From contig JADZCT010000007.1 in NCBI GenBank assembly GCA_020851455.1, forward strand, positions 1-64,000: a DNA stretch of 64,000 nt, written 5' to 3'. Each line of letters opens with the position of its first letter. Positions within the stretch are counted from its first letter, which is position 1. The translations under genes were made by a program, and so were the position numbers. The notes below the pieces were generated by a model, which was not told the DNA's origin, did not search any database, and saw only the letters and a list, made by a program, of their open reading frames with translations. Origin of the DNA: Gemmatimonadaceae bacterium (GTDB lineage: Bacteria; Gemmatimonadota; Gemmatimonadetes; Gemmatimonadales; Gemmatimonadaceae). Below are positions 24,576-29,415 of the stretch, in pieces.

Positions 24576-26834
24576 ATGGGCGGACTCCTTGCACCGCTTC
24601 CTCAGTCCATTGTGACCACGCCAGTCATCGAGCGAATCTCTCCGGCCAACGTTGCGTGGCTGAAGGAATTCTCGGTCGCGATGCACCGCCGGTTCGCGTA
24701 TCCGCCGGGGCATCCGTCGTCGGTCGCCGCAGGGAAGGTCGCGGTTCGCGCGCTGGAGCAGGCGCTTGTCGTCGCGCCCGAAATCGTGATGACGATCGGG
24801 CGGCGGCACCTCTCCATCGGAGGCGCGGTGAGCGACCCCAGGAACCCTGCGCTGGGAGAGCTCGCCGAGCGGCTGCATCGCCAGGGCATCGCGGCAATCA
24901 CGCTGCGCGAGGGGCTGGGCGAAGCCGATTTCGACGCACTGCTCGGCTTCATCGTCACTTCGCACGCCCCGGAATCTGAAGACGACGACTTGACGACACC
25001 ACGCCTGGGCGAACACGTGTCGGTCGAACTCCTCAGCTACGACGGGCTCGTGCTGGACGAGGAAGAGGAAGATGGCCCCGGGCACGACGAGAAGGCGGAA
25101 CACCTCTGGCAGCAACTGGCCGAGGCGGCGTTGATCGGATGGGACGACGGCGGGGGCACCGGGAAGGGTGGCGGTGGTGGTGCAGCGAGTGACACGCGCG
25201 AAGAGAACGGTGGCCCCGCGTCCGAACCGGCCCCGGAGCCGTCCGGCGCAGCCGGGAAGCAGCCCGCGGCCGGTGACGCCGCTCCGGCCGACGCGCCGCC
25301 TGCGACCCGCCGCTCGGGTTCGCTCAGACGGTCGGCCCAGTTGTCCGCCGTGTTCAGCGCCGAGCAGATTGCGGCCGCGATCAGCGCGCGCGCGCGGGCC
25401 GATGGCGACCGGCCCGCGATCCTCAAGTCGCTGCTGCGTATCGGCCGGCACGTCCGCCGCCGCGGCCGCGGGGGCAGCGGCGCCGTGGCGGCGCGGCTGC
25501 GTGAAGTGCTCGAGAAGCTCGAGCCCGGCACGCTCGCGAAGCTTCTCGAAGGGGAGCCGGATCCGGCGCGCCAGCGACTGCTCCTGATCCAGGGAGTTGA
25601 TTCGCTGCCGGTGTCGGCCGTGACGGACTGGATCGAGGCGGCGGCAACGAGCGGTGGCAAGACGGTCTCGAGCCACCTCCTGCTCCTCTTCAAGAAGCTC
25701 GCGGCGCAGACGCATCGGCGCGCCGACTCCGGGGCCGACGAAGGAGGCGAGCCGATCCGCGAGGCCGCCCGCAAGCTCATTGACGACTGGACGTTCGAGG
25801 CCGGGGGCTCCGATGCGCACGGCGCCCTCCTCGCGAAGATTGGCGCATACGATTCTCCCGACACGCAGAAGGACGGCGGCGGGGGCGCCGGCGCCGACGT
25901 GATCGTGCAGATCGCACTCGAGACGAACGTCTCCGGTCCGGACGTAGGTGTTGCGGTGAGCCAGCTCATTGACGAGAAGCGCCTGGGCCTGCTGTTCCGG
26001 TTCCTCGACGAAGCCGAGCGCGCATCCGTTGCCGCGCCGATGATTGCGGAACAGTTGCTCGAGCCCGAGATGGTGCGCCTCGTGATGCTCGCCGAGCCGA
26101 TAGAGACGGAAGGTGCGCGCCTGCTGCTCGAGCGCTGCGAGCTTCCCCAGGCCGATGCCCTCCTCGACGCGCTCGCAATCTCCGAGTCGGAGGCGACCCG
26201 CCGTCTCCTGCTGGCGCGGCTGGGAGAGCTCGGCGACTCGGTGCGCGACAAGCTGATCGCGCGGCTGGACGGGGCGACGTGGTATGTGCAGCGCAACCTT
26301 CTCATGCTCCTTGCCGCGCTTCCGGACCCGCCACAGGACCTTCCATTCGACAGCTTCACCGCGAGCGAGGAGCCCATGCTGCGCCTCGAGGCCTATCGCC
26401 TGCTCGCGAAGATACCCGCCCGTCGCGAAAAGGCGGTACACGACGCGCTCTCCGACCCGGATCAGCGCGTCGTTCGCGGCGGCATCGAGCTTGCCGCCGA
26501 TGGCGTCGGCCGCCGTTCCCACGCGCGGCTCCTGCAGCTCGTCGAGGAGGCCGCCGAGGGATCCGACATCCGGATCAGGGGCATCGCGCTCCTCGTTCAC
26601 GTGTCCCTGCCGGCTTCGCGCGACTGGCTGCTCGCGCACGTGCGCCGCAGGCGCGGCTTCCTGGTGTTCCGCCGCTGGGCCCTGGTTCCCAGGTCGCCCG
26701 AAATGCTGGCCGCGCTTCGTGTGCTTGCCCAGCGCTGGCCCGCCGACCCGGATGCAAGAGCAACGCTGGCGCTCGCGGCGGGCTCGGGCGACCAGCACCT
26801 GGCTGCGGCAGCGGCCGGGCGGGAGGCGAAGTGA
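24576..26834 (+). CDS. HEAT-repeat protein with an N-terminal domain shared with the next gene
   Basis: About 752 residues, no signal peptide. The N-terminal region contains FAYPPGHPSS followed by MTIGRRHLSIGGAV and HRQGIAAITL, a pattern that recurs at the start of the HD-GYP protein encoded next. Then come an acidic linker (DEEEEDG), a Gly/Pro/Ala-rich disordered part, and a C-terminal half of alpha-helical HEAT-like repeats (for example EPMLRLEAYRLLAKIPARREK, then DPDQRVVRGGIELAADGVG). HEAT arrays usually serve as protein-binding scaffolds. The stop overlaps the GTG of the HD-GYP gene, which implies joint translation and perhaps a complex. The start is uncertain: GTG at 24612 is an alternative and neither has a good SD sequence. 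Confidence 0.6.
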   Translation: MGGLLAPLPQSIVTTPVIERISPANVAWLKEFSVAMHRRFAYPPGHPSSVAAGKVAVRALEQALVVAPEIVMTIGRRHLSIGGAVSDPRNPALGELAERLHRQGIAAITLREGLGEADFDALLGFIVTSHAPESEDDDLTTPRLGEHVSVELLSYDGLVLDEEEEDGPGHDEKAEHLWQQLAEAALIGWDDGGGTGKGGGGGAASDTREENGGPASEPAPEPSGAAGKQPAAGDAAPADAPPATRRSGSLRRSAQLSAVFSAEQIAAAISARARADGDRPAILKSLLRIGRHVRRRGRGGSGAVAARLREVLEKLEPGTLAKLLEGEPDPARQRLLLIQGVDSLPVSAVTDWIEAAATSGGKTVSSHLLLLFKKLAAQTHRRADSGADEGGEPIREAARKLIDDWTFEAGGSDAHGALLAKIGAYDSPDTQKDGGGGAGADVIVQIALETNVSGPDVGVAVSQLIDEKRLGLLFRFLDEAERASVAAPMIAEQLLEPEMVRLVMLAEPIETEGARLLLERCELPQADALLDALAISESEATRRLLLARLGELGDSVRDKLIARLDGATWYVQRNLLMLLAALPDPPQDLPFDSFTASEEPMLRLEAYRLLAKIPARREKAVHDALSDPDQRVVRGGIELAADGVGRRSHARLLQLVEEAAEGSDIRIRGIALLVHVSLPASRDWLLAHVRRRRGFLVFRRWALVPRSPEMLAALRVLAQRWPADPDARATLALAAGSGDQHLAAAAAGREAK

Positions 26835-28021
26835 ACGCGCCCGCTGCCGTGATGGTGTCGCTTGGGCAGTGCCTTTCCACGATGTCGCTCTATTCGTCCG
26901 GACACCCAGCGCGTGAGCGCGTGTTGGACTCTTCATTCGCGAAACTGGCCGATCTGCTCAACGACATCCAATACGCCGACTTTTCCATCATTGGCGACGG
27001 CGTCGTGTTCCATGACCGCGTTGTCGAGGAACTGCGCAACTGGGACTGGGCACCGCGCCTGAGCGCGGCGGGGATCGGCCGCATCGAGATTGACGCCGAC
27101 GTAACGCGCGAGGATTGGTCGCTCGCGCTGGATGAGATGTACGCGCGTCTCGATGGCAAACCAATGGACAGCAGCGCACAGCGGCAGACCGTCGCCACGT
27201 CGGTTCGCTTCGGCCCGCTGCGGGTGCTTGCTGGCGCTGAAGGCGCCGAGCAGGCCGTCGAGGAGAAGCCCGCGCCCGCGATCGAGTACGAGGCGGCGGC
27301 ACGCCTCGCCCTCTCGCTCGCCGAGGAGGTCGTCACGGTCAATTGGATCCACGAGGAAGTGCTCTCCACCGAGCGTATCCCCATGGCGGAGGTGGAGGCC
27401 GTGGTGGGCTCGCTTGCGATCGCGATGCACCGCGACAAGGGCCTGCTGCTGCCGCTCGTGATGCTCAAGGAGTTCGACCAGTACACGACCACCCATGCGT
27501 GCAACGTGGCGGTGCTGGCAATGGGCCTGGCGGAAGCCGTCGGGTGTTCGAGAGCGGAGGTTCGCGCCTTCGGGGTGGCGGGCCTGCTTCACGACATTGG
27601 CAAGGTGCGCGTCCCGCGCGATATCCTCAACAAGCCGGGCCGCCTCACCCCGGAGGAGATGTCGGTGATGGCGACACACCCCGCCGAGGGCGCGCGTATC
27701 CTGCTCGAGAAGCACAAGCAGATGCAGATGGCGGCGGTGGTGGCGTACGAGCATCACGTGCACCTCGACGGCGCCGGGTACCCGCGCTTCCAGTGGAACC
27801 GTGGCTGCCACTTTGCGAGTCGGCTCGTGCACGTCTGCGACATCTACGACGCCCTCTCCACCAACCGGCCATATCGCAAGCCGTGGACTACCGAGCAGGT
27901 GCTCAACTACATAGAAGAGCGCGCCAGGTCGGAGCTCGATCCTTCGCTCGCGCATACCTTTGCAAGCATGGTGCGCGGCGCGACGATCGCCCCGATGCCG
28001 CCCCCGGGGCTGGCCGGCTGA
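26831..28021 (+). CDS. HD-GYP domain phosphodiesterase
   Basis: A 396-residue cytoplasmic protein. The C-terminal half (from about residue 215) is an HD-GYP domain with the full set of metal and substrate motifs: HDIGK (His254-Asp255), THPAEGA, and HHVHLDGAGYP. Such domains hydrolyse cyclic di-GMP or related cyclic dinucleotides. The N-terminal 150 residues (LYSSGHPARE ... DFSIIGDGVVFHD ... AAGIGRIEID) resemble the N-terminal domain of the preceding HEAT-repeat protein and probably act as a sensing or partner-binding module. The GTG start overlaps the stop of that gene. Enzymatic activity is likely since all motifs are present; the exact nucleotide is inferred. Confidence 0.85.
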   Translation: MNAPAAVMVSLGQCLSTMSLYSSGHPARERVLDSSFAKLADLLNDIQYADFSIIGDGVVFHDRVVEELRNWDWAPRLSAAGIGRIEIDADVTREDWSLALDEMYARLDGKPMDSSAQRQTVATSVRFGPLRVLAGAEGAEQAVEEKPAPAIEYEAAARLALSLAEEVVTVNWIHEEVLSTERIPMAEVEAVVGSLAIAMHRDKGLLLPLVMLKEFDQYTTTHACNVAVLAMGLAEAVGCSRAEVRAFGVAGLLHDIGKVRVPRDILNKPGRLTPEEMSVMATHPAEGARILLEKHKQMQMAAVVAYEHHVHLDGAGYPRFQWNRGCHFASRLVHVCDIYDALSTNRPYRKPWTTEQVLNYIEERARSELDPSLAHTFASMVRGATIAPMPPPGLAG

Positions 28022-28365
28022 ACCGGGCGCGCGTCTCATTAACAGAACCTTTCACGTGCTTCACTGGCACGTAAGGCGTCGCTTCGCAGACTACGCGCGT
28101 CCGCAGCAGTTGCGGTGTTGGACGATGCGGCCGTCGCGAGCGGAGAAAGCACTAACGTAGGTGGGGTTCCGCGATCGGCTGGCGCAGTGGTTTAGTCATG
28201 CGCCGGTACACTGGGGGGTGAACCGTGTGCGTGGCGAGGCCCGTGGCCGGAAACGGTCACGGGCCGTGCGCTTTATGCGCGCTTGCGCACTCGAACCTCC
28301 TCGACCGGGTTCGTATTATTGTGGACGGTGCGCGCGGATGTGCCTCCGTCTCTGACCGCCAGGCG
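28022..28365 (+). other. Intergenic stretch with hairpins, no gene recognised
   Basis: Between the HD-GYP gene and the zinc-ribbon gene I find no convincing coding region. Three inverted repeats are visible: ACGTGC/GCACGT near 28053-28072, GGCGCA/TGCGCC around 28180-28205, and an eleven-base pair GGCCCGTGGCC/GGTCACGGGCC (one G-U pair, six-base loop) at 28238-28265. None has a T-run. The last could be a terminator of the upstream operon or part of a 5' leader of the next gene; I could not match it to a known RNA family. Confidence 0.4.
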
Positions 28366-29415
28366 ATGTTCTCCACCTGCATCTTCTGCAACGAACCGCT
28401 GGGCTCGAACGAGGTGTTCGAGACGTTTCCGGTAGGGCGGCGCCTCGCATTCGACGCCGCGCGCGGACGGCTCTGGGTGGTGTGCCCCTCATGCGAGCGG
28501 TGGAACCTCTCGCCGCTCGACGAGCGCTGGGAGGCGATCGAGCAGGCCGAAAAGCTCTACTGCGACACCCGCCGCCGCGTTAGCACCGACAACATCGGCC
28601 TTGCGCGGCTTCGTGAAGGAACCACGCTGGTGAGGATTGGCGAACCACAGCGCCCCGAGTTCGCAGCGTGGCGCTACGGAGACCAGTTCGGCCGCCGCCG
28701 GACGAGGGCGCTGCTCCTGGCTGGCGGCGGCATCGCGGCGGTGAGCGGAGTCGTCGTTGGCGGAACGATCGCAGGCGTGAGCGTGGGCGCGTTCGCCTAC
28801 TCCTTCACGCAGGTGGGCGACCGGATCGTTCGCGGAAACCCGAAGGCCGTGGTCGCAACGATCAAGACGGAATCGAACGGGGTGGTGCACGTGCAGCGCC
28901 GCCACCTGGGCGAGTCGTTCGTGAACCGTGCACCCGATGGATCCCTCGGCCTCTCGCTCCGGTTCAAGGAGGGCCAGGCCGACTTCACGGGTGAGGAGGC
29001 AGCGCGCATTGCGTCCATAATCGTTCCCAAGGTCAATCGCTTTGGCGGCAGCAGGCGCGAAGTCGCGCAGGCGGTCGAGGCGATCGAGCGGGTCGGCAGT
29101 TCCGAGCGATTCCTCTCCGCCGTGGGCAGATACGCACGGGGATCTGACCCTGGCAGCCATGGCTCCCCGACGTGGACCCGTAAGCGTGGCGCCACGCCGT
29201 ACCACAAGCTCGGACTCTTCGCAATCCCGAAGACGGACCGCCTCGCCCTCGAAATGGCGCTTCACGAGGAGGCCGAGCGACGCGCCATGGAAGGCGAGCT
29301 CGATGCGCTCGAGGAGGCGTGGCGCGACGCCGAGGAGATCGCGGCCATTGCCGACTCCCTCTTCGTCCCGGAGTCGGTGGAGGAGAAGCTCAGGAAACTG
29401 AAGGCCCGCGGCTGA
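28366..29415 (+). CDS. Zinc-ribbon membrane protein of unknown function
   Basis: A 349-residue protein. It starts with a four-cysteine zinc-ribbon pattern: Cys5 and Cys8 in CIFC, Cys40 and Cys43 in CPSC. A hydrophobic stretch near residues 114-148 (LLLAGGGIAAVSGVVVGG and on) looks like one or two membrane helices. The remainder is polar, with a region around GVVHVQRRHLGESF and an acidic, helical C-terminus (HEEAERRAMEGELDALEEAW) that may form a coiled coil. The ATG is chosen because it places the first cysteine pair at the N-terminus; the frame stays open upstream. I do not recognise the family. It stands alone between two clusters on the plus strand. Confidence 0.6.
   Translation: MFSTCIFCNEPLGSNEVFETFPVGRRLAFDAARGRLWVVCPSCERWNLSPLDERWEAIEQAEKLYCDTRRRVSTDNIGLARLREGTTLVRIGEPQRPEFAAWRYGDQFGRRRTRALLLAGGGIAAVSGVVVGGTIAGVSVGAFAYSFTQVGDRIVRGNPKAVVATIKTESNGVVHVQRRHLGESFVNRAPDGSLGLSLRFKEGQADFTGEEAARIASIIVPKVNRFGGSRREVAQAVEAIERVGSSERFLSAVGRYARGSDPGSHGSPTWTRKRGATPYHKLGLFAIPKTDRLALEMALHEEAERRAMEGELDALEEAWRDAEEIAAIADSLFVPESVEEKLRKLKARG

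Follow-up and report, generated by a model that had tools for sequence, protein, structure and literature searches.

Overlapping genes for a HEAT-family protein and an HD-GYP protein

The window, a 64,000-nt stretch of a Gemmatimonadaceae contig, carries two adjacent genes that, as the first-pass annotation had noted, overlap. The first (24576–26834, +) encodes P0001, a HEAT-family protein of 752 amino acids, and its reading frame ends at 26834; the second (26831–28021, +) encodes P0002, an HD-GYP protein of 396 amino acids, and can begin with the GTG at 26831. Both frames are open, the resulting overlap is the 4-base GTGA (26831–26834, +), GGGAGG lies just 5′ of the GTG start codon, and a 4-base overlap is also the commonest junction between the two genes in relatives. 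The start of the HEAT gene is uncertain, with ATG 24576, ATG 24468 and GTG 24612 all possible. An open reading frame downstream of the pair (28225–29415, +, 396 amino acids) contains CIFC and CPSC motifs, a possible zinc ribbon; its best Pfam match, at E 0.16, is not credible.

Both proteins begin with a common domain, which spans approximately residues 19–128 of P0001 (24630–24959, +) and residues 3–108 of P0002 (26837–27154, +). In P0002, an HD-GYP catalytic domain follows (27476–27949, +); in P0001, the C-terminal part, approximately residues 261–745 (25356–26810, +), is a putative HEAT-like alpha-solenoid, assigned from a conserved block and from HEAT_2 matches in relatives. The annotation had described an enzyme next to a HEAT scaffold. 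The HD-GYP assignment was borne out, P0002 matching Pfam HD_5 with 95.5 bits against a curated cut-off of 27.2 (E 3.9e-27), whereas the HEAT assignment comes from the relatives of P0001, 17 of 29 of which match HEAT_2 in Pfam; P0001 itself had no HEAT match in the curated-model scan. The HEAT partner carries no catalytic domain.

The search for the pair in other genomes that the annotation had proposed found it in much of the order, where the HEAT protein has homologues in 57 of 81 genomes. The HEAT match was followed by an HD gene on the same strand in 62 of 64 cases; of the two exceptions, the one in G034 is close to the end of its contig, with the HD-side domain right after it by profile search, and the other (G021) had no HD gene paired with it in the neighbour count. 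Among 80 named loci, from a profile scan in which nearly all records were labelled Gemmatimonadota, the HD gene lay directly downstream in 72, the contig end intervened in 5, and the remaining 3 had an HD reading frame that the distance filter left unpaired. The pair is thus close to obligate. Evolutionary distances of the HEAT and HD proteins correlate at 0.94 over 96 pairs, a value that shared ancestry alone would also give. Two records with the pair (L112 and L152) are labelled Actinobacteria and Acidobacteria; these may be labelling errors, or the range of the pair may go beyond Gemmatimonadota. Plasmid records contained HD-GYP matches, none spanning 80% of the query.

The source genome contains three such pairs in the same HEAT-then-HD order, on contig 16 (the window), contig 49 and contig 120. 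The contig-120 pair sits between trpB and trpA (G000:C120:114000-124000), and its type has relatives in 76 of the 81 genomes of the order. In the loci examined, its own HD gene came next in 30 of 30 and trpB lay directly upstream in 28 of 30, with trpA downstream in both loci that extend far enough to include it. The HEAT protein of this trp pair has a strong HEAT_2 match, and the N termini of this pair type are homologous to those of the window pair, some cross-comparisons being weaker.

A common N-terminal domain

BLASTP of P0001 against P0002 did not find the N-terminal similarity, and the profile comparison called for by the annotation was therefore the right approach. The motifs it had quoted, YPPGHP, YSSGHP and the rest, are present in the two proteins. 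When profiles built from 30 HEAT and 38 HD N-terminal regions from genomes of the order were compared, hhalign aligned them over 98 columns with a probability of 97.9% (E 5e-13, score 78), pairing QGIAAITLREGLGEADFDALLGFI on the HEAT side with AGIGRIEIDADVTREDWSLALDEM on the HD side, as the annotation had done. Controls scored far lower: the best of 300 column shuffles reached a score of 20.5 (3.8%), the reversed profile 19.2, and other segments of the same proteins at most 16. With YPPGHP and YSSGHP masked, 94.7% (E 6e-8) remained, and with a second set of alignments, built on the named genomes, the value was 96.4% (E 1e-9). The two pair types comprise four N-terminal families, and each of the six possible comparisons between these lay well over the shuffle level (97.9, 97.3, 89.9, 86.4, 74.8 and 69.4%).

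The domain was also retrieved across the two families in six-frame searches that covered 150 genomes from the phylum. The HD-side profile also recovered N termini of HEAT partners (for example, 5e-8 in genome G030 and 6e-8 in G034), and the HEAT-side profile those of HD partners (1.7e-7 in G039, 1.4e-6 in G036). In the Y-x-x-GHP loop, Y21 and H25 are invariant on the HD side, and Y26 and H30 nearly so on the HEAT side. The first ~110 residues of the HEAT and HD-GYP proteins are homologous and form one common domain. Separately, a weak match to the HEAT-side profile (1.5e-4; G026:C5:15357-15644) lies beside another HEAT-like region and may mark a further HEAT protein with the domain.

Differing predicted folds had been named in the annotation as evidence against a common domain; what AlphaFold2 predicted, compared as order of elements, was α-α-β-β-α-β-α for both. 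The elements are H3-20, H26-43, E48-54, E57-60, H73-79, E84-88 and H93-107 on the HD side (mean pLDDT 88.9), and H7-25, H31-50, E53-58, E63-65, H75-86, E89-95 and H100-112 on the HEAT side (core pLDDT mostly >90). The annotation knew of no name for the domain, and we likewise found no relevant model in Pfam or NCBIfam. For both domains, a Foldseek search of the PDB returned no match at E 0.001 or better, and the best VIA-align Z values against the PDB (4.0 for the HD side and 5.8 for the HEAT side) fall in the range that the tool calls common.

The HD-GYP domain, and GGDEF neighbours in relatives

P0002 carries the PmGH metal ligands H189, H221, D222, H250, H276, H277 and D305 together with the GYP motif; in its own numbering, the catalytic domain contains H222, HD 254–255, K258, H283, HH 308–309, GYP 316–318 and D337. 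These seven ligands are kept in 105–106 of 106 sequences of the window family, and GYP in all 106. PmGH has eight listed metal ligands (PMC4159591), and at the position of its E185 the window family has Tyr in 106 of 106 sequences (Tyr218 in P0002). One of two large HD-GYP groups carries Tyr or Phe where PmGH has E185 (PMC4159591), and the window family therefore belongs to the Y/F subfamily rather than to the eight-ligand, trinuclear E/D-T-G subfamily. The HD family of the trp pair has the same seven ligands, GYP and Tyr at the E185 position in 31 of 31 sequences. The window family does not conserve the Glu of the HHE motif, and the DG of HHxxxDGxGYP is frequently NG, with NG and GG variants both present. 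Because the seven ligands and GYP are retained with Tyr at the E185 position, P0002 is, judged by its residues, probably active as a Y/F-type HD-GYP. PF11871 (DUF3391) had no match in P0002; in the HD protein of the trp pair it matched below threshold only, at residues 182–225, C-terminal of the shared domain.

In 17 of the 72 named loci with an adjacent HD gene, a PAS-GGDEF gene directly follows it, often with a 4-base overlap; examples that overlap the HD-GYP end are L074:9383-10267, L078:4210-5118 and L118:9389-10279. The encoded proteins have intact GGDEF and ND...GD residues and a D at the nucleotide-selectivity position, which we take to separate c-di-GMP cyclases from Hypr cyclases. The position of these genes after the pair points to c-di-GMP as the messenger. 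No GGDEF gene adjoins the window pair or the contig-49 pair of the source genome; GGDEF proteins were found in all 21 genomes searched, the source genome included.

A candidate two-protein switch

The overlapping genes and the common domain across Gemmatimonadota suggest that two proteins together form a switch acting on a bacterial messenger. The annotation had likewise proposed a two-part signalling device, with the domain as a putative dimerization or sensing module. In the model that we favour, and hold to be moderately probable as a whole, a c-di-GMP phosphodiesterase and a HEAT regulator, coupled in translation, are joined through the shared domain. Each gene would supply one half of a single c-di-GMP signalling module, in which translational coupling would yield matched amounts of both proteins and the shared domains would pair as homodimers, heterodimers or both. 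The HEAT partner would thereby dock its solenoid on the phosphodiesterase and, on binding a target, could control the activity or location of the enzyme. In part of the phylum, this node would receive its c-di-GMP from the PAS-GGDEF cyclase whose gene comes directly after the pair, and copying of the pair as a unit would have given rise to the three paralogous pairs of the source genome. A bolder version is possible but tentative: an undescribed alpha/beta domain, possibly of a new fold, would build a heteromeric phosphodiesterase whose neighbouring HEAT scaffold gates c-di-GMP breakdown, one copy of the system being part of the tryptophan operon in most of the order.

The shared domain could instead be a ligand- or target-binding sensor that each protein uses separately for the same signal. 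The HD-GYP protein would then alter how much messenger is present, the HEAT protein would be a separate effector, and no heterodimer would form. Conservation of the Y-x-x-GHP loop in both families fits such a sensor, as does the missing coevolution signal between the two domains: in mutual information from 96 paired sequences (effective number ~60), pairs of N-terminal columns were not favoured, with enrichment of 1.6-fold in the top 50 and 1.0-fold in the top 200, a result that at this sample size weighs neither for nor against contact between the two proteins. However, the near-obligate adjacency, the gene overlap and the existence of two paralogous pair types fit a complex better, and the fold search gave no clear ligand-binding relative; we consider separate sensors rather unlikely. 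Less likely still is that the HD-GYP protein has a different cyclic dinucleotide as its substrate, for example 3′3′-cGAMP, or is no enzyme but a receptor, in which case the module would be no c-di-GMP phosphodiesterase. The Tyr that it shares with V-cGAP3 at the E185 position and the NG and GG variants of its motif would agree with this, but the canonical cyclases directly downstream in relatives have the c-di-GMP type of selectivity residue, seven of the eight PmGH ligands are retained, and the Y/F form is itself a large HD-GYP group (PMC4159591).

Chance likeness of the motif as the source of the N-terminal similarity was ruled out by the shuffle, reversal, segment and masking controls. Chance or convergence on a short YPxGHP motif in general, with which the empty BLASTP comparison and the weaker scores of some trp-pair domains would agree, is extremely improbable given the margin over shuffles, the survival of the signal under masking, the cross-retrieval from whole genomes and the matching predicted topology.

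HD-GYP enzymes are widespread, yet to our knowledge the control of their activity is known for few. If the favoured model of a coupled phosphodiesterase and HEAT regulator is right, a near-obligate partner that has the enzyme's own N-terminal domain and lacks a catalytic domain would offer a good point of entry to that control. The position of the second pair between trpB and trpA opens the testable possibility that c-di-GMP is connected with tryptophan synthesis. Searches of a paper library found nothing on Gemmatimonadota with HD-GYP and, by title and abstract, nothing relevant on HEAT repeats, HD-GYP and operons.

Among known systems, the c-di-GMP phosphodiesterase PmGH (PDB 4mcw; PMC4159591) is a relative of the catalytic part: its HD-GYP domain aligns at positions 204–375 of the family profile (E 3.7e-38) and seven of its eight metal ligands recur, whereas its E185 is replaced by Tyr in the window family and the match stops short of the N-terminal domain. 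V-cGAP3, a 3′3′-cGAMP phosphodiesterase (PDB 5z7c), likewise has an HD-GYP domain with Tyr at the E185 position, but its main match is confined to the HD-GYP region, and this likeness does not fix the substrate of the window family. The proposed way of working, rather than any other likeness, recalls SiaC–SiaD (PMC8457831), in which a diguanylate cyclase is activated by the partner that binds it; the window pair would instead place a phosphodiesterase under a partner's control.
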